8,043 bases of DNA from Synergistota bacterium (lineage in GTDB: Bacteria > Synergistota > JAGHAJ01): contig JAGHAJ010000053.1 of assembly GCA_021161545.1 (NCBI GenBank), positions 1 to 8,043 of the forward strand. Reading direction: 5' to 3'. The notes beneath the pieces are model-generated. The model worked only from the letters and a program-made list of their open reading frames with translations. It made no database searches and had not been told where the DNA came from. Position numbers and translations under genes: made by a program. Shown here piece after piece: positions 1 through 8,043 of the stretch (position 1 is its first letter; each line of letters begins with the position of its first letter).

Positions 1-2192
1 ACCCCCGTGAGGATACATTGACCAGTATCAAATACAGGTAGTTGCGCCAAAAACTCTTCAGATACAGCCTCTACCATGTTGCCAATAGCAGCAATGTCGT
101 TAGTGTTAATCAACCTGAATATCGCACTCGTGTTACACTGGGCAATCACATCTTTGGCGATATAGGCTGGCCTCTGGGTAACCACGAGAAGACCAACATC
201 AAATTTCCTGCCCTCAGAAGCGATCTTCCTGAGCATCCGCGAACTGTACGAGCCTTTTCCACTCCTCTCTGGAGCATAATTATGAGCTTCTTCAACCACA
301 ATTAGAGTCTTAAAATTACCATTTGTCTCCTTTGCCTTCTTAAACAGGGCATTAAGAAACTTGCCTACAAACTCCCTCCTCTCTTCATCGTCGAACAAGT
401 CCCGCAGACTGACTACATAAACACCGGGAGTATTTATCATCTCTATCACATCACCCTGCTTGAATCCCACCTCTCCGCTATCAAACATCTTCTTGATCCG
501 ACGATACTTCTCAGGGCTGAACTCGGGTTCACCTTCCGTCCGAGATGAAGAAAGAATGGAGCCAACCAGCCTTTCCCGATAAACCTTCATATACTTCTCA
601 TAAAATTCAGATTTCTTAATTTTCTCGATAGCCCCCGCATAAACTTCTTTTCTTATATCCTTAGCATCTTTGCTGTTCGGAGCCATACCTTTAGCCTTTA
701 CCACCACAGATGCTAAACCCCTAAGCATATCCTCACATATGTGTCCTTCCACCACCTCATCCGTAATATGCGCCCGTATAACCGACTCTATGTGCTGAAG
801 CATTCCCTCTACATCGTCCCGCTCTGGAATTGTATTCTGTTCAACAAAATCCAAGAATCTCCTTATTCTCTCAGATTCCTCTTCAGAACCGAGGGAAGCA
901 TCGTATGCACCCTTCAAAACCTTTCGCTCATCTCTACTAAATTCCATACCAAAAAGCTCACCAAAATCCGTATCTCCATCGATAACCTGCTTAAGCATAG
1001 CCTCTTTAAGATGCCCGACATCTATGTTTTTCAATTCACCTTTGAGCATCTCTGGAACATCAGGGTTATCCAGGGTGTACTCATCATGCGTGTCAAGCAC
1101 AATTATGCGCCCACCAACTCCTTTCAACCAACGGTAGAACTTAGCTATAAACCTCTTGACAAAGTAGGACTTACCGCTACCCGTAGTCCCAAAGACTGCC
1201 ATATGCTTTGAAAGGACCTCCTTAAAATCAACTCCTACCTTCACATCCGGATTAGCAACCATAGTAGCAACAGGTTCAACACCTCGGCAAAAGAGCTCCT
1301 CCAAAAGCTCTACTCTGGCACTCCTTATAAGAGCTGCAGTTGGAACAGCAACACGATTAAAACTCAGCACATCACCATCCTTAATCTCCTTCAAAATTTC
1401 TATGTTACCGCTCCTTAAGTGTGCATAACCAGCCTCCTTAGTGAGCGTAATCAGCTTGATGTATCGTGCCAGTGGAGATTCGTCGGTCAAGGCACCAATA
1501 AACTCCTTAAACTGACTGTCTTCACTGCTCTCTGGCGTGATAACTGAAAGAAAAGCTGCATGGTGCGCATAAGGGATAACCACTTTGCCTAACCACCGCC
1601 TCTTATTTCCTTCGTAATCTTCTGCTTCCACCTCCACAAACTTCCCAACCTCTACCTCCTTAACTCCGACATACCCCACAGACCTGTTCGTGCCACCACT
1701 CAGAGTAAAACCAATGACCTCATCCTCAATGGCAGATGCCTTCTGCCACAAGTCTTCAAATATGTCCGTCAATTCTTCAATCTTGTCCTTATCGCGTATG
1801 AGCACACCTACCTCTTCGTTGCTACCAGAGCGGTATGCATCTCCATAGCCACCACCCGTGAGGTTGAAAGAGCCCACCGTGGCAAAAAAGTCATCAATGA
1901 TGTTCATCTTTGCATGGAGATGAGCCGTATACCTGACCTTCGCCTTCAGTCTATTAGCAATACTCAAAAAGTTTCCCACATCTGTGATAGAAAAGTCCCC
2001 ACTACTTCCCATACGAATAAGAAACCTTACCTCGGGTAGGTCATCTCCATGTCTTTCAAACCAACTCTCATCAAATACTTTCTTGAGGGTCTCACTCCTA
2101 ATCCACGCAGAACAAACATAAATCCTCTCCTTTGCGTTATCTACCGCCTCTTTTAAGGCATCCAGATTATTCACATTGGTCAGAAATTCCAT
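1..2192 (-). CDS. PLD nuclease-HerA ATPase fusion (C-terminus beyond window)
   Basis: 730 codons are visible and the 3' end is cut by the window edge. Residues 1-155 form a phospholipase-D-superfamily domain with one HKD motif: H93-x-K95-x4-D100, followed by G107-S108-x-N110. A single motif implies an active site built by dimerisation. Residues about 168-206 (VGYVGVKEVEVGKFVEVEA) look like a HAS-barrel. The HerA/FtsK-fold ATPase follows: Walker A GTTGSGKS at 335-342 (K341), a long helical insertion at about 385-590, Walker B LIVVEEAHN at 630-638 (E634/E635), then the HerA signature TQRP and a sensor stretch ending FRLINTND. Family knowledge: HerA hexamers translocate DNA and usually work with a separate nuclease such as NurA; here the nuclease is fused. 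The ATG start follows GAGGAGG by 7 nt. The gene lies 66 nt after the repeat-protein gene and is probably co-transcribed with it. The domain call is firm; a defence or DNA-repair role is inference. Confidence 0.93.
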   Translation of the reverse strand, partial: MEFLTNVNNLDALKEAVDNAKERIYVCSAWIRSETLKKVFDESWFERHGDDLPEVRFLIRMGSSGDFSITDVGNFLSIANRLKAKVRYTAHLHAKMNIIDDFFATVGSFNLTGGGYGDAYRSGSNEEVGVLIRDKDKIEELTDIFEDLWQKASAIEDEVIGFTLSGGTNRSVGYVGVKEVEVGKFVEVEAEDYEGNKRRWLGKVVIPYAHHAAFLSVITPESSEDSQFKEFIGALTDESPLARYIKLITLTKEAGYAHLRSGNIEILKEIKDGDVLSFNRVAVPTAALIRSARVELLEELFCRGVEPVATMVANPDVKVGVDFKEVLSKHMAVFGTTGSGKSYFVKRFIAKFYRWLKGVGGRIIVLDTHDEYTLDNPDVPEMLKGELKNIDVGHLKEAMLKQVIDGDTDFGELFGMEFSRDERKVLKGAYDASLGSEEESERIRRFLDFVEQNTIPERDDVEGMLQHIESVIRAHITDEVVEGHICEDMLRGLASVVVKAKGMAPNSKDAKDIRKEVYAGAIEKIKKSEFYEKYMKVYRERLVGSILSSSRTEGEPEFSPEKYRRIKKMFDSGEVGFKQGDVIEMINTPGVYVVSLRDLFDDEERREFVGKFLNALFKKAKETNGNFKTLIVVEEAHNYAPERSGKGSYSSRMLRKIASEGRKFDVGLLVVTQRPAYIAKDVIAQCNTSAIFRLINTNDIAAIGNMVEAVSEEFLAQLPVFDTGQCILTG

Positions 2193-2258
2193 CCGAAGGC
2201 CTCCTCTTCAAATGAACTTAAAACACATACAGTTTGAGCTTACCATTTCGCCCTCCAC

Positions 2259-3134
2259 CTACTCCACAGACGATATAAGGTTCACATAATAGTCGAACTC
2301 CAGCCATGCCCTCCTAGCTATGTCCATCCACTTTCCAGACTTATCCTTCTTTATAAGTGCCATAGTCCCCTTCCTATAATCAAACTCTGGCCAAGCTATG
2401 CCGGCATACCCTATCCACTCTCCAGTCTTATCTTTCATAATTAACACATCGAGCCCCCTCTCATAATTAAACTCTGGCCACATCTTGCCAGCCAGATATA
2501 TCCACCTTCCAGTTTTATCTTTCTTGACGAGCTTGTTAAAACCCTTTCCATAGTCAAACTTGGGCCAATAGGCACCCGCACTATATATGCTTTCTCCACT
2601 TTCGTCTCTCTCAACAAGTAGTTCAAACCCTCTATCATAGTCAAACTTGGGCCAGTACTTTCCTGCATCACATATCCACCCTCCCATCTCGTCTCTCTCA
2701 ACAAGTGCCTCAAATGCCCTATCGTAATCAAATTCCGGCCATTTACTACCTGCACACACTATCCAGCATCCAACCGTATCCTTTTCAATAAGCGCTTCAA
2801 AACCCCTTTTATGGTCAAACTCCCACCACTCTATGCCAGCCCAACATATCAACTCACCCGTCTCATCTCTTTCAATAAGTGCCTCAAGCCCTTTACTGTA
2901 GTCAAATTCACGCCACTCCTTTCCTGCTTCGTATATCCACCACGGATCATCTTTTTCAACGAGAGCCTCAAACCCCCTATCATAGTCAAACTCACGCCAT
3001 CTATCACCTGCTTCGTATATCCACTTTCCAATCTTGTCCTTCTCAATAAGTACTTCCAAACCCTTCTCATAATCAAAGTCTCCACCTTTGCAACCTAACT
3101 CGTAAATCTCCTCTGCATTCAGGTTCTCACACAT
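2259..3134 (-). CDS. tandem 29-residue repeat protein, function unknown
   Basis: A 291-residue protein made of a half-repeat cap (residues about 7-18), nine units (19-278) and a terminal half-repeat (279-291). The unit consensus is roughly EFDYxKGxEALIEKD followed by xxGxWIYxAGxxWP. Each unit reads as two short amphipathic helices separated by the KD-x-x-G turn, which suggests an alpha-solenoid of TPR or HEAT style, but the repeat length and Trp/FDY signature match no family I recognise. Unit 2 is one residue short (28) at the turn. There is no signal peptide, membrane segment or catalytic motif, so it should be cytosolic and is probably a binding scaffold or sensor. The ATG is preceded by AAGGAGGT with 9-nt spacing. 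It is the upstream partner of the PLD-HerA gene; the gene order and short gap suggest a shared transcript and a related job. The coding call is strong, the function unknown. Confidence 0.9.
   Translation of the reverse strand: MCENLNAEEIYELGCKGGDFDYEKGLEVLIEKDKIGKWIYEAGDRWREFDYDRGFEALVEKDDPWWIYEAGKEWREFDYSKGLEALIERDETGELICWAGIEWWEFDHKRGFEALIEKDTVGCWIVCAGSKWPEFDYDRAFEALVERDEMGGWICDAGKYWPKFDYDRGFELLVERDESGESIYSAGAYWPKFDYGKGFNKLVKKDKTGRWIYLAGKMWPEFNYERGLDVLIMKDKTGEWIGYAGIAWPEFDYRKGTMALIKKDKSGKWMDIARRAWLEFDYYVNLISSVE
2301..3080 (-). repeat. nine 87-bp imperfect tandem coding repeats
   Basis: This block encodes protein residues 19-278 of the repeat protein. Nine units run head to tail, eight of 87 bp and one (unit 2) of 84 bp. 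On the + strand they are seen as recurring words such as tcaaac or tcaaattc followed by the complement of Trp and Lys/Glu codons, and as repeated ccactttcc and tatccac strings. The DNA copies are diverged, while the protein pattern (FDY, G, A-L-I/V, KD, G, W-I, A-G, W) is kept. This indicates old duplication held under selection for the protein rather than a recent slippage array. Confidence 0.88.
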
Positions 3135-3224: not shown

Positions 3225-3668
3225 CTATTTCTTAAAAATCTCCAACACGCAAAAGACTGTAATCCCGTGAAGATTAGCTCCAGCAGTGAGTGAACTGCAT
3301 CGTTCTTCTGCTGTTTCCCGAAATCCCGCTGCGAAAGACGGTGAAATACTTAACTTAATTTTTGCACAATTGGGCTGGAATTTCAAGCATCCAGCATCAT
3401 ATATAGAAAGTGTCCCAGAAGCGGCACTTGGTATGCAGATATTTACCACCTTGGAAGAGTTGACGAGTAGGTTCATATTTGTCGAGCCATAATACAGCCA
3501 CATAATTATTGTCGGAACAAACATAAGACTATAGGTTGAGTGGAGGTTCCAGAAATAGGATGTGAATCTCATTCTACTTTTTGCATCTACAGCATCCCTC
3601 CTTTTTACACAATTATATGGACTTGACTTGAAATTCTCTGCTAACTGTGTAATAATTAAATCACTCAT
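3225..3668 (-). CDS. doubtful hypothetical ORF, 147 residues
   Basis: An open frame starting at an ATG with AAGGAG 6 nt upstream, just upstream of the repeat-protein/PLD-HerA operon and on the same strand (90 nt gap). In favour: the good ribosome binding site, the 147-residue length and the position. Against: low charge, many Ser and six Cys residues, no recognisable motif, and only a short hydrophobic stretch (LMFVPTIIMWLYYG, about 52-65). A 68-residue frame on the opposite strand (3286-3492, GTG start) is also open and has an equally plausible composition, so one of the two, or both, may be spurious. I do not recognise either. If neither is a gene, 3135-3719 is about 585 bases of non-coding or decayed DNA. 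Treat as a low-confidence candidate. Confidence 0.3.
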   Translation of the reverse strand: MSDLIITQLAENFKSSPYNCVKRRDAVDAKSRMRFTSYFWNLHSTYSLMFVPTIIMWLYYGSTNMNLLVNSSKVVNICIPSAASGTLSIYDAGCLKFQPNCAKIKLSISPSFAAGFRETAEERCSSLTAGANLHGITVFCVLEIFKK

Positions 3669-3689
3669 TTTTTCTCCTTGAAGGAGTGA
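3661..3689 (-). promoter_or_regulatory. nested inverted repeats around a ribosome binding site
   Basis: TCACTC (3661-3666) pairs with GAGTGA (3684-3689). Inside lies a second dyad, CTCCTT-G-AAGGAG (3674-3686). On a minus-strand transcript this would place the AAGGAG Shine-Dalgarno and the AUG of the 3225-3668 ORF in a stem-loop. Alternatively only the inner CUCC/GGAG stem with a 5-nt loop forms. It could limit translation. It could also be chance, since the ORF itself is doubtful. Confidence 0.3.
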
Positions 3690-3708
3690 CACAACTAATT
3701 GTATAGAT
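3678..3708 (+). promoter_or_regulatory. weak candidate promoter for the transposase-like gene
   Basis: TTGAAG (3678-3683) and TATAGA (3702-3707) are separated by 18 bp and each match four of six sigma70 consensus bases. Transcription would start only a few bases before the ATG at 3720, and no clear Shine-Dalgarno lies before that ATG. The opposite strand carries TACAAT (complement of 3698-3703), a possible -10 for the minus-strand ORF, so two divergent -10 elements would overlap. Weak evidence on both strands. Confidence 0.25.
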
Positions 3709-3719
3709 AGGTACACGGA

Positions 3720-4490
3720 ATGGACATTTTGAATGGTAATTCCATCTTCACGCACCTCAAGAAGGAAAGGGATGGTAATATTAAGATAAAGCTCGTAGGA
3801 TTAAATCTTATCCACATACATGGTAAAACAGTTTCAGATATTTCTGAAATACTTGGAATATCCCCTCGAACTGCTTACAGATGGATAAAAGAGTGGAATA
3901 CAAACGGATACTCAGGTATAGCAGTTAAACCACCTTCTCCAGGAAGGCCACCAAAACTTGATAGGAAGAAGATATCTATACTTAAAGATAAAATGAAGTG
4001 TAGACTCTTCTGGAGAGTAGAAGATGTAAGGATTACAATAAAGACCCTCTTCGACTTGGACCTCTCTGATGTCCAAGTAAGGAGGATTTTAAAAAACAGC
4101 ATGGGTATGACATCCATCAGGCCATATTTTTATGATGAGAGCAGAATAAATATTTATTCTGTATCTGTAAAAGGGTTAAGAGATGTGATTTACAGGTTAG
4201 AGAAAGAAGGATATCCTCCAGACTTGATAGGTATAGGTGTTCTCAAAAAACACACAACCAGCAGGAAGGGACTCTATTCATACAATGCTATAGTCGGTAA
4301 TGATACTGTGGTCGATGCCAAAAACCTCACAGAGGATAAGGAAATAAAAAGACTTCTTCTAAATATACATAGTTCAAACAATACATTCTGTGCCCTCGTG
4401 GTGGCAATTGATTGCTCCATCTGGTACCCACATCCATCCCAAATGGAGTTTAACATAATTCCCCAATTCTTCATATGGTGCAGTAAATAA
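3720..4490 (+). CDS. IS630-like transposase DNA-binding half with atypical C-terminus
   Basis: A 256-residue protein. Residues 27-60 hold a helix-turn-helix (HGKTVSDISEILGISPRTAYRW), followed by the GRPPKL linker (75-80) and a second winged-helix-like segment (about 84-128, ending DVQVRRILK). This order is characteristic of the N-terminal half of IS630/Tc1-type transposases or of their OrfA. The expected DDE/RNase-H half is not visible: residues 130-256 are unrecognised and contain no clear D...D...E triad. The last about 40 residues (Cys, Trp and Phe rich) look like out-of-frame sequence. I see no terminal inverted repeats on the flanks. Likely readings are a decayed insertion-sequence remnant fused to other DNA, or a transposase-derived DNA-binding protein. 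No clear ribosome binding site precedes the ATG, and translation may be weak. The domain call is good; activity as a transposase is unlikely. Confidence 0.7.
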   Translation: MDILNGNSIFTHLKKERDGNIKIKLVGLNLIHIHGKTVSDISEILGISPRTAYRWIKEWNTNGYSGIAVKPPSPGRPPKLDRKKISILKDKMKCRLFWRVEDVRITIKTLFDLDLSDVQVRRILKNSMGMTSIRPYFYDESRINIYSVSVKGLRDVIYRLEKEGYPPDLIGIGVLKKHTTSRKGLYSYNAIVGNDTVVDAKNLTEDKEIKRLLLNIHSSNNTFCALVVAIDCSIWYPHPSQMEFNIIPQFFIWCSK

Positions 4491-4581: not shown

Positions 4582-4610
4582 TTGACAAATGACATTATTT
4601 ATGATAAGTT
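4582..4610 (+). promoter_or_regulatory. sigma70-type promoter for the signalling pair
   Basis: A perfect -35 TTGACA (4582-4587) is followed after 15 bp by GATAAG (4603-4608) or after 17 bp by TAAGTT (4605-4610), in the context tatgataagtt. Transcription from about 4615-4618 would give a short leader containing GAGGT (4623-4627) before the ATG at 4636. The -35 is exact and the -10 is weak. It would serve the 227-residue gene and, through it, the HD-GYP gene. Confidence 0.55.
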
Positions 4611-4635
4611 TTTCACACCAGCGAGGTCTATAATT

Positions 4636-5319
4636 ATGAAAACATACACTTACTTTCACGTTCACAGAAAGCTAAATGATAATACGGATGGAAATTATGT
4701 AATAATCTCTTTACCAGTAACCTCTTCGTCCAAAAATTCTTACAAAAAGGACTCCTTTGAGATAGCCAAAGCTGTAAGTAGTAGAAAATTTCGTAGGTTA
4801 CTGAGTATTAGATTGAGGGATAGGGAATACATCTATCTTACTCTTGTTGTCCCCTGTAATATCTCTCTGGAGATGGAGAATGAAACGCATAGGATAACAC
4901 AAATGATCGAAGAAGAAACCTTAGCAACTTTAGAAACATTGGAGAAGAGCTGCATAATTTCTCAGATAGGTAAAGCTTCCTTTGTATTACTCCATGGAGT
5001 TGAAGAAAGGACCTTAATAGAGAAAGTTTCAAGCGCACTTTTGAATAACTTGAAAGATAAAAAGTTGTATCTCAATGAGCCAAGAGATATTCTTGTTTTA
5101 ACCTTCAAAGTTAGTATAGATGCAGTAAATTCTGTTCATGCAGCACAGAAAATCTTCAATGTTCTACGCAATGAAATAGTGGAAGTGATTGAGAATAACT
5201 TCAGTTATAAAAACATTACCACTCTACTACAGCAAGATGTATTCCTAAGTGCTTTCAAAGGTGAAAAAGAAAATACTCCTGACAATAGCTACTATTATAG
5301 GAATAGGGACAGTAATTAG
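4636..5319 (+). CDS. hypothetical protein upstream of HD-GYP sensor, 227 residues
   Basis: I do not recognise this protein. It has alternating beta-like and helical segments: a Tyr/His-rich start (TYTYFHVHRK, 2-11), strands around 21-29 (YVIISLPVT) and 65-74 (YIYLTLVVPC), an acidic helix at about 80-105, strand 115-120 (SFVLLH), strand 152-159 (ILVLTFKV), and a C-terminal amphipathic helix at 165-190. There is no signal peptide or membrane span, so it should be cytosolic. The frame is open further upstream to a TTG at 4582, but that TTG is the -35 element of the likely promoter. The ATG at 4636 has GAGGT 8 nt before it and is preferred. The last about 20 codons overlap the start of the HD-GYP gene in another frame, which implies translational coupling. 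It may be a regulatory partner of the phosphodiesterase; that is inference from position. Confidence 0.75.
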   Translation: MKTYTYFHVHRKLNDNTDGNYVIISLPVTSSSKNSYKKDSFEIAKAVSSRKFRRLLSIRLRDREYIYLTLVVPCNISLEMENETHRITQMIEEETLATLETLEKSCIISQIGKASFVLLHGVEERTLIEKVSSALLNNLKDKKLYLNEPRDILVLTFKVSIDAVNSVHAAQKIFNVLRNEIVEVIENNFSYKNITTLLQQDVFLSAFKGEKENTPDNSYYYRNRDSN

Positions 5320-8043
5320 CTACATTGCTGCCATCCAGCTTACAGAAAGAAGTTTTGAAGATGTGATTCTGCCACAAATAGCAAGAAACTTCTCAGTGGT
5401 TCAAAGGATCACAGGATTAAGCAGCAAAACTGTTGGGCTTTTTCTTACCCTCCGGCGAAGAGGGGCTGAAGAATTTGCACGCAGGTGGGCAGAAGAGGTA
5501 GCTAACACCCTTCGTTTTTATCAAAGATTCATTCTTGGAGGAAAAGCTAAGAAGAACAATGTTATACAAATGGCCAAAAGGGTTTTATCCTCTTATAATC
5601 TTGGTAGATTCTCATATCTATTCTTGGTTGATTCAACGGGAAGGATCATTTATCATCCTGACAACGCGAAGGTTGGTAGAAAACTCTCAGCAGTCTATCC
5701 ACTTCTTGCATCTACTGCTGCCAAATCCATAAAAGGGACAGTTTACCATTTCTTTCATAAGCCAGATTTAACCGTGGGATGGTGTAAATTTAAAGATTGG
5801 GGATGGACAATTTTCACAGTAGTAGATGATTACAGGCTTAATACCATAAGTTTAGCAAATTTTGTAGAAATAGAGAAAGAATCTCTGAAGAAGAGGATAC
5901 TTGCTCTAAGGATATCAGATGGATATATTTCAATATACAGTAACGAAGGAAGATTGATAGCCTACCCTTATAAATCTGTGAGAGAAGACGATATACCTAC
6001 TTCGCCTTTCATCAGAAAAGTCCTCTCTACCGGCTCAGGATACTTTATTTATTCAATTAATGGGGAAAAGCGACTCAAGGTATTTACAGAGATTGCTCCT
6101 TACGGATGGTATGTTGTTCTTACAGTTTACGTGAATAAGCTAAACAGGGCGTTCGAAGATAGTATCTCCAAATACATGCTTCCTTCTGCAGTAGCACTTA
6201 TGTTGCTGTTACTGTTGTTTACCTACAAATTCATTGACAAAGGAGTTGTAATGCCTATTCTTGCTGTCGTTGAAGGACTTAAAAAGTTTTCCAATGGAGC
6301 ACTTGACTACAGGTTACATATCCCCGTAGAGGATGAAATGAAAGAACTCGTTGAAGGATTCAACTCAATGGCTGAGAAGATAGACAACCATAGAAAGAGG
6401 ATGCTTCGCGACAGGGAAAGAGCTGAGCTTCTACTTAAAGCAATGTATGAGATAAAGGATTATACATCCAAAGAGAAAGTGGCAGAAAGAATATCCAAAG
6501 CCCTTGTAGGAGCAAAAAAATATACCCATGTTGCTATACTGGCTGTGAGAGGAAGGCGAATAGTACCTCTGTATGCAACTATCCTCTTCCGCAGAGTAAG
6601 TTCTATCGGTGTTGATGAGGGTGTTGTGGGTTGGTCAGTAAGAAATAAACGTGCACGTATCGTGCCAGACGTGAAGAATGACCCGTACTATTTGGAAATA
6701 TCCCCCTATGTTAAGAGTGAAATAGCCGTCCCAATTATGGGTAAACATGAAGTCATTGGGGTAATAGATATAGAGTCTGAGAGGCTCTCTGCATTTGATA
6801 AATCTGATGAGCACTTCCTTAAGATGCTCGCTGAGTTTCTGTATTCTGTATTCAAGAAATTGGAATTACTGGACAATTGGCGTTCACGTGTATTGGAACT
6901 TGAAGGGCTTTTTAGCATACTCAAGAGTGTTGCAGGGAAAAAATCACTTAGGGAGGTATCCAAGGAGATCGTAGATAGGCTGTTCAATATAGGAAATTAC
7001 CATAATGTATCTCTTTTGTTAGTAGATGAAGGAAAACTAAATATGGCATATTGGCGTGGAATTGAAAATGCAGATACAGAGTTCAATCACATCGAAATCC
7101 TTGGGAAGGGTATTGTAGCAAGAGCCGCGAGAACGGGTGAATTACAAAATATTCCAGATGTTTTGAGTGACCCAGACTACATTCAAGTGTTTAAAGATGT
7201 CAGAAGTGAACTCGCAGTTCCCATAAAGGCAGACAAAAATGTAGTAGTTGGGGTGATAAATGTGGAGTCATCTGTTGTTAACGCATTCAAGCAGCAGGAT
7301 GAAAGACTTATATCCTCACTCGCAGATATCATTGTAAGTGTCGTACATACATTGAAAGAATATGAACGTGCAGAGAAAATGTACAGGGACCTCAGTGAAT
7401 CTTACCGAACTTTACAAAACTTGACCATACAACTTGAAGAAAAAGAGGAAAAACTCAAGCAGGTAAATGCTCGTCTTGAAGACTATCTTCAGAAGCTCGC
7501 CTCTGTAAATGCTGAACTGAGGGAAAAGACTGAAGAACTTGAGGAAGCATATATTCAAACTATTAGAGCACTTGTAAAAGTGATAGAAAGGAAGGATCCA
7601 TACACGAGAGGACACTCTGAGCGGGTAGCAGAGTATGCTCTCAAAATAGGAAAGGTCTTAGGGCTAAATGAAGAGGAACAAAAATTCTTGCTGTATGCAG
7701 GACTTCTTCACGATATTGGGAAAATTGGTGTCAGAGAGGAGGTGTTAAATAAATCTGGTAGATTGACAGAGGAAGAATACGAAGAGGTGAAAAAGCACCC
7801 CGTATATGGTGCTGAAATTCTCGGCGAAGTACGGTTTCTACGGAGGATTTCCTCCACCGTCATGCACCACCATGAGAGGTGGGATGGTAAGGGTTATCCT
7901 GATGGACTAAAAGAAACAGAAATACCCCTGTCCGCAAGGATAATAGCAGTAGCAGATGCTTATGATGCAATGACTTCAAGCCGCTCTTACAGAGGAGCTC
8001 TTACCGTAGAAGATGCAATAGCAGAACTAAGAAAGGGAAAAGG
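5261..8043 (+). CDS. Cache-HAMP-GAF-GAF-HD-GYP c-di-GMP phosphodiesterase (partial)
   Basis: 927 codons are visible and the 3' end lies beyond the window. Domain order: basic N-terminus and membrane span (about 6-25); periplasmic double Cache-like sensor (about 26-300, with FLVDSTGRIIYHPD and a later ISIYSNEGRLIAYP); second span (307-324, rich in Leu); HAMP (about 325-385); GAF1 (about 390-535); GAF2 (about 550-697); coiled coil (about 698-770); HD-GYP from about 770. Catalytic residues visible are H785, H817-D818 with K821 (LLHDIGKIG), H846 (HPVYGAEIL), HHExxDGxGYP at 870-880 and D899 (ADAYDAMTS). Known HD-GYP enzymes hydrolyse c-di-GMP with a two- or three-metal centre; all usual motifs are intact, so activity is likely. 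The signal would be a small extracytoplasmic ligand, further tuned by the GAF domains. The start is uncertain: GTG 5261 (taken here) or GTG 5249; a TAA at 5246-5248 blocks anything earlier, and neither has a strong ribosome binding site. The gene overlaps the upstream gene by about 59 bp. Confidence 0.93.
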   Translation, partial: MKKKILLTIATIIGIGTVISYIAAIQLTERSFEDVILPQIARNFSVVQRITGLSSKTVGLFLTLRRRGAEEFARRWAEEVANTLRFYQRFILGGKAKKNNVIQMAKRVLSSYNLGRFSYLFLVDSTGRIIYHPDNAKVGRKLSAVYPLLASTAAKSIKGTVYHFFHKPDLTVGWCKFKDWGWTIFTVVDDYRLNTISLANFVEIEKESLKKRILALRISDGYISIYSNEGRLIAYPYKSVREDDIPTSPFIRKVLSTGSGYFIYSINGEKRLKVFTEIAPYGWYVVLTVYVNKLNRAFEDSISKYMLPSAVALMLLLLLFTYKFIDKGVVMPILAVVEGLKKFSNGALDYRLHIPVEDEMKELVEGFNSMAEKIDNHRKRMLRDRERAELLLKAMYEIKDYTSKEKVAERISKALVGAKKYTHVAILAVRGRRIVPLYATILFRRVSSIGVDEGVVGWSVRNKRARIVPDVKNDPYYLEISPYVKSEIAVPIMGKHEVIGVIDIESERLSAFDKSDEHFLKMLAEFLYSVFKKLELLDNWRSRVLELEGLFSILKSVAGKKSLREVSKEIVDRLFNIGNYHNVSLLLVDEGKLNMAYWRGIENADTEFNHIEILGKGIVARAARTGELQNIPDVLSDPDYIQVFKDVRSELAVPIKADKNVVVGVINVESSVVNAFKQQDERLISSLADIIVSVVHTLKEYERAEKMYRDLSESYRTLQNLTIQLEEKEEKLKQVNARLEDYLQKLASVNAELREKTEELEEAYIQTIRALVKVIERKDPYTRGHSERVAEYALKIGKVLGLNEEEQKFLLYAGLLHDIGKIGVREEVLNKSGRLTEEEYEEVKKHPVYGAEILGEVRFLRRISSTVMHHHERWDGKGYPDGLKETEIPLSARIIAVADAYDAMTSSRSYRGALTVEDAIAELRKGK

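Follow-up and report, generated by a model that had tools for sequence, protein, structure and literature searches.

The gene pair and its contig

The window (the whole stretch of DNA that we analyzed, 8,043 nucleotides) is an entire contig (C101) of a 1.58-Mb assembly that consists of 288 contigs and is 82% complete (G000). At one end it carries two open reading frames on the minus strand, at positions 2259-3134 (291 aa) and 3-2192 (at least 730 aa, open at the contig end). The features of this pair are:

3..2192, minus strand: PLD-HAS-HerA fusion gene (PLD-HerA for short), 730 aa, 3' end cut by the contig end
1737..2192, minus strand: PLD (HKD) nuclease domain, residues 1-152; PLDc_2 at 8.1e-11; H93, K95, D100, G107, S108 and N110
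1233..1736, minus strand: HAS-barrel region and linker, about residues 153-320, placed by the start of the structural alignments and a Pfam match in the relative L029
3..1232, minus strand: HerA/FtsK-type ATPase with a helical insert at about residues 390-580; K341, E634-E635, R662 and Q673-R674
2193..2258, minus strand: intergenic gap of 66 nt with the ribosome-binding site AGAGGAGG
2259..3134, minus strand: gene for an acidic alpha-solenoid repeat protein, 291 aa, nine 29-aa helical-hairpin units, pI 4.65

Because the window is the complete contig, the HerA gene is truncated and the region downstream of it is out of sight. Compared with the complete relative L028 (C-terminus ...TGVSIYQPVTVRVMGGD), the window protein is without its last 15-20 codons or so. 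The preliminary description had reported a minus-strand pair with strong ribosome-binding sites and a 66-nt gap, and both the coordinates and the upstream sequences agree: AAGGAGGTG stands before the repeat gene, and the site for PLD-HerA lies in the gap. No terminator-like site was found in those 66 nt, and the two genes are probably co-transcribed. An Rfam search gave no match.

Window positions 3225-4490 hold a mosaic of transposase remnants, with the N-terminus of a helix-turn-helix transposase at 3720-4490 and short fragments at 3423-3674. We weighed the possibility that the contig was mis-binned; the short fragments recur, with 81-94% identity, in seven further contigs from the bin, which speaks for membership. 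At 5249-8043 a large sensor protein runs off the other contig end; it combines Cache, HAMP, two GAF and HD domains, the output being HD-GYP-like. The start of its gene is overlapped by a 245-aa open reading frame (4582-5319) with no Pfam match.

A nuclease and a HerA motor in one chain

In addition to the PLDc_2 domain, Pfam identifies DUF87/HerA in the window protein (8.6e-20); the match to the NCBIfam helicase_HerA model falls under its curated equivalog cut-off. The nuclease motif, H93-x-K95-x4-D100-x6-G107-S108-x-N110, has the HxK(x)4D(x)6GSxN form of the PLD (HKD) nucleases and sits in a PLD fold. The ATPase has a Walker A motif (GTTGSGKS, with K341), a Walker B region (E634-E635) and the C-terminal motifs of HerA, as members of the HerA/FtsK-HerA ATPases do. 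The N-terminal HAS barrel of that class is recognized by structure; Pfam scores none in the window protein, but it does in L029 (1.3e-6). The protein is acidic, with a computed pI of 5.34 and a charge of -20.

An AlphaFold2 monomer model, based on eight sequences, is of moderate confidence (pLDDT 71, pTM 0.52), and residues 209-241, in the HAS/linker region, are of low confidence. In VIA-align comparisons with known structures, residues 1-159 of the model align with PLD proteins, NucT and Nuc among them, at Z 15-16, and residues 158-730 match the HerA proteins of NurA-HerA, Sir2-HerA and DUF4297-HerA with Z up to 22.6. The alignments to HerA begin at residues 155-159, and therefore we assign the region 153-320 to the HAS barrel. 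Weaker matches, by structure and by HMM, are to TdpA, VirB4 and CedD/CedB. The PADLOC HerA models also match the window protein, as they match any HerA-like ATPase.

The fusion family and the place of the window copy

The residues expected to carry out catalysis, H93, K95, D100, K341, E634 and E635, are invariant in all 45 aligned long members, and so are R662, Q673, R674 and the remaining motif residues G107, S108 and N110. The catalytic residues of both halves being invariant, both activities must be under selection. Together with the Pfam and structure matches, this conservation upholds the initial reading of an ATPase with HAS-barrel-like and Walker A/B signatures joined to an intact HKD domain. 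Judged by its sequences, the PLD-HerA fusion is a real family, and we have found no paper on it in the literature searched.

The fusion is present in 78 of the 136 genomes of the Persephonella phylum (Aquificota) at E <= 1e-40, mostly in single copy. In the window's own phylum it occurs in 1 of 185 genomes, the window's alone (E <= 1e-20). Two of nine genomes have it in the phylum of L028, and likewise two of nine in the phylum of a Dictyoglomota-labelled genome, where both are truncated by contig ends. In 84,980 species genomes we found L028 (56%) and L029-L031 at full length, and L032-L034 as partial. Viral contigs scanned with PLD-HerA gave no match, and phages gave terminase only. The Aquifex aeolicus plasmid ece1 (L025:5421-7338) holds a broken full-length relative with stops and a frame change. 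It is annotated only as a DUF87 protein and an ATP-binding protein, the PLD part being unannotated.

In a tree of the family, the window sequence groups with L028 and L043 (support 100/100), and a very long branch, of 2.19 changes per column, sets this group apart from the Aquificota members. Between the two clades the PLD and ATPase parts match (phmmer 1e-17 and 7e-42), and the HAS/linker part gives no match. One ancient fusion would be the simpler reading of these sequences. Because the branch is so long and the HAS/linker part is unmatched, two independent fusions are possible, in which case the window clade may have another role.

The window copy is probably a divergent member that was acquired horizontally. 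Its rarity in the phylum, the nearby transposase remnants and a GC3 of 0.46 in both genes of the pair, as opposed to 0.34-0.35 in the flanking genes, suggest that the two genes arrived together by transfer. Its distribution looks like that of a mobile gene, not of a housekeeping gene. The neighbors of L028 and L043 differ from those in the window and are unrelated to each other, and a search of both loci for a common downstream partner in the clade found none.

An acidic solenoid with no homologue in the collections searched

The repeat protein had been described as having nine units, and nine is what we count, all of 29 aa except one of 28, followed by a partial tenth. Comparisons between units give a mean pS of 0.66, which is near saturation of synonymous sites, with a mean pN of 0.30; the units are thus old and maintained by selection, and this is no chance open reading frame. 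Five positions are invariant in all nine units and form a framework (F1, L10, D14, A23, W27). The most variable positions are 4, 16, 18, 21, 22, 25 and 26, a pattern known from repeat proteins that have a binding face. The best of five single-sequence models is an alpha-solenoid with pLDDT 91.7 (the other models range from 76 down to 28). The protein has a pI of 4.65 and a computed net charge of about -21, an acidity that argues against plain DNA binding. The solenoid probably binds a protein, for example as a regulator or a scaffold.

A fold search returns only generic solenoid matches. Like PUF, TPR/Sel1 and ARM/HEAT proteins, the repeat protein consists of stacked helical hairpins, and the best overlays include PUF domains (Z ~10), in the range that a shared helical arrangement alone produces; it differs from all of them in its 29-aa period and has no sequence match to them. 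We find no homologues in Pfam, NCBIfam, PADLOC or PDB, in plasmids, phages or the 185 genomes of the phylum, or in viral contigs (using both the whole protein and a profile of the repeat block), an absence that covers the collections searched and is to be read knowing that diverged repeats are hard to detect. For PLD-HerA loci the absence was tested directly: no other PLD-HerA genome or locus searched has a homologue of the repeat protein. Several candidate homologues were rejected. L023 is a flagellar-type protein with 51 aa aligned by chance, L046, L063 and L064 are weak chance matches, and in the PHROGs rows no single stretch passes alone.

The preliminary description took the repeat protein to be the second component of a system, and this is not supported: in the loci searched, no homologue adjoins any other PLD-HerA gene. 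Adjacency of the two genes had been set beforehand as the test, rare adjacency counting against the pairing, and with the other PLD-HerA loci free of a solenoid homologue that adverse outcome is largely what we see. Since the fusion is common in Aquificota, usually amid ordinary genes, the solenoid looks like a one-off companion and not like the conserved half of a defense system.

Genomic neighborhoods of PLD-HerA

In 40 Aquificota loci (neighbors named by eye from sequence, except where Pfam was run), the neighbors are constant within a lineage, different between lineages, and mostly housekeeping. One group has obgE, a glycolate-oxidase-like gene and nadA, another has dtd, murI or coaE, and other loci have argH, prfA or amino-acid genes beside PLD-HerA. 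Clear defense neighborhoods number 3 of the 40. In L103:2223-7938 and L109:3129-7920, a type III-A CRISPR csm3-csm4-csm5 set directly precedes PLD-HerA, with a csm5 overlap in L109, and in L101 a type III methyltransferase (a DNA methylase) is near. L032-L034 also have neighbors with defense-like matches, which in L032 include a type IIG/I restriction fragment. Few of the 92 neighbor families match PADLOC at 1e-15; among the matches listed are a type III methyltransferase, Csm4, Csm5 and one HerA-like family. The enrichment of defense genes that the preliminary description proposed to check, and the candidate defense role it put forward, find little support in the family: PLD-HerA stands mostly alone amid Aquificota housekeeping genes, which that description had named as the second outcome that would count against its reading. 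The loci examined share no universal partner gene, and those read show no transfer genes beside PLD-HerA.

In 8 of the 40 loci, all from a single lineage, the nuclease NurA is encoded 1-3 genes from PLD-HerA, obgE lying between them; in L030 the distance is 7 kb. All four Aquificota PLD-HerA genomes tested have NurA, so PLD-HerA is no simple NurA replacement there.

Comparison with known systems

HerA motors are known to work with nucleases or NADases that are separate proteins. That the window protein has its nuclease built into the motor had been proposed by analogy with such systems, and the domains and structure matches support it. NurA-HerA carries out DNA end resection in archaea and Deinococcus (PMC9960219, PMC12977600). 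Its HerA, like PLD-HerA, has a HAS barrel and intact Walker motifs, and the HerA of the T. kodakarensis complex is among the best structural matches (Z 22.2). The nuclease is on the HAS (exit) side, as we propose for PLD-HerA. The difference is that NurA is a separate, RNase H-like protein, whereas the nuclease here is PLD/HKD and fused in cis. NurA (PF09376) was not detected in the window genome (G000, 82% complete), in the genomes of the other window-clade members (G185, G196), or in G190 and G191, so that no NurA partner is found in the three window-clade genomes searched.

DUF4297-HerA and Sir2-HerA are anti-phage systems in which HerA and effector form one assembly (PMC11291478). Their HerA halves match the PLD-HerA motor equally well (Z 19-22), but their effectors are separate PD-(D/E)xK or NADase proteins, and defense islands are not the rule for PLD-HerA. 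The sole visible gene adjacent to the window PLD-HerA is that of the repeat protein, which has no PADLOC, Pfam or NCBIfam match and is neither DUF4297 nor Sir2; the other side lies beyond the contig end.

SauUSI, an ATP-dependent restriction enzyme (PMC7913695), also has an N-terminal PLD nuclease and a nucleic-acid motor in one chain, but its motor is an SF2 helicase and not DUF87/HerA. The structural match across both halves is poor (rmsd 18), and Pfam and NCBIfam detect neither an SF2 nor an SRA-like modified-base domain in the window protein at the thresholds used. Nuclease domains of the Nuc/NucT and NgoFVII type have, like PLD-HerA, one HKD motif per chain and identical motif spacing, and the NgoFVII PLD domain is matched in relatives; unlike PLD-HerA, these nucleases are without an ATPase motor.

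A possible mechanism and the alternatives

HKD enzymes with one motif per chain act as dimers, as established for Nuc. With one motif per chain in PLD-HerA too, the PLD domains probably pair, and six chains could form three active sites. The protein would form a hexameric ring that translocates dsDNA in the manner of HerA. DNA leaves the channel of NurA-HerA at the HAS barrel, to which NurA is bound (PMC9960219), and in DUF4297-HerA the nuclease protein is likewise on the HAS side (PMC11291478). Since this exit is the docking face in both, and since sequence and monomer model place the PLD domain at the N terminus with the HAS region immediately after it, the ring would carry its six PLD domains at the exit. 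Powered by ATP hydrolysis, it would draw duplex DNA through its channel, for cleavage by the PLD domains. By analogy, PLD-HerA may be an ATP-driven translocating nuclease.

We favor, with a probability of about 0.6, a single-chain HerA motor-nuclease that is the in-cis counterpart of NurA-HerA and that, in genome maintenance, processes or degrades DNA ends. For the family as a whole, a distribution that is chromosomal, single-copy and set among housekeeping genes, with NurA close by in one lineage, favors this role; a defense function is conceivable too, most readily in the rare window clade. One point against NurA-type end processing is that PLD enzymes are usually metal-independent, unlike NurA. 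If the reading is right, a cis-fused nuclease that keeps its active sites in 45 of 45 members and occurs in more than half of the searched Aquificota genomes offers a simple model, in one protein, of the way HerA motors deliver DNA to nucleases. It would also be a candidate enzyme for the processing of DNA ends in bacteria that are among the most heat-loving.

The window pair itself could be an anti-invader system, in which foreign DNA would be degraded by PLD-HerA, with the solenoid either sensing a trigger or holding the nuclease back. The genes are close and co-directional with strong ribosome-binding sites, their shared GC3 suggests joint acquisition, the copy is rare in its phylum and adjoins transposase remnants, the PADLOC HerA models match, and elsewhere PLD-HerA lies near csm genes, a methyltransferase and a restriction fragment. 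But the repeat protein is without homologues in all collections searched, L028 and L043 of the same clade carry other and mutually unrelated neighbors, the Aquificota neighbors are mostly housekeeping, and the PADLOC models do not discriminate among HerA-like ATPases. We consider this reading rather unlikely, although a local defense role of the window copy is possible because it is divergent, unique among the 185 genomes and probably acquired horizontally. A bolder combination would make PLD-HerA a cis-fused HerA nuclease of a kind not yet described, which defines a major pathway of DNA processing in Aquificota; the window clade would have recruited it, along with a modular acidic solenoid whose variable positions are a recognition face, into a new sensor-effector defense system. 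This we regard as a long shot. In general, a single locus is insufficient to call a HerA-nuclease pair a defense system.

A role in DNA transfer or plasmid maintenance, like that of TdpA or CedB-type HerA relatives, would fit the broken copy on plasmid ece1 and the weaker matches to TdpA, VirB4 and CedD/CedB. We find it very improbable, as the Aquificota copies are mostly chromosomal and in stable housekeeping contexts, no transfer genes are adjacent in the loci read, and a pure DNA pump would not need the invariant nuclease residues. A shade more improbable still is that the solenoid restrains a toxic PLD-HerA nuclease, as an antidote-like inhibitor or a mimic of DNA. Its gene comes first and close to the nuclease gene, and its low pI and strong negative charge would suit a mimic; but that charge is not distinctive because PLD-HerA itself is acidic, and all other PLD-HerA genes do without a solenoid.

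Other recurrent neighbors

Two further arrangements recur at PLD-HerA loci. In L033:1173-3691 and L034:2505-4747, PLD-HerA is preceded by a conserved gene pair, one coding for an HEC-02A-like AAA_21 ATPase and the other for an unknown protein. In two Aquificales (L029:2605-3762 and L030:10084-11241), it is followed by the same AAA_14 ATPase, which is related to the PADLOC candidate PDC-S01.
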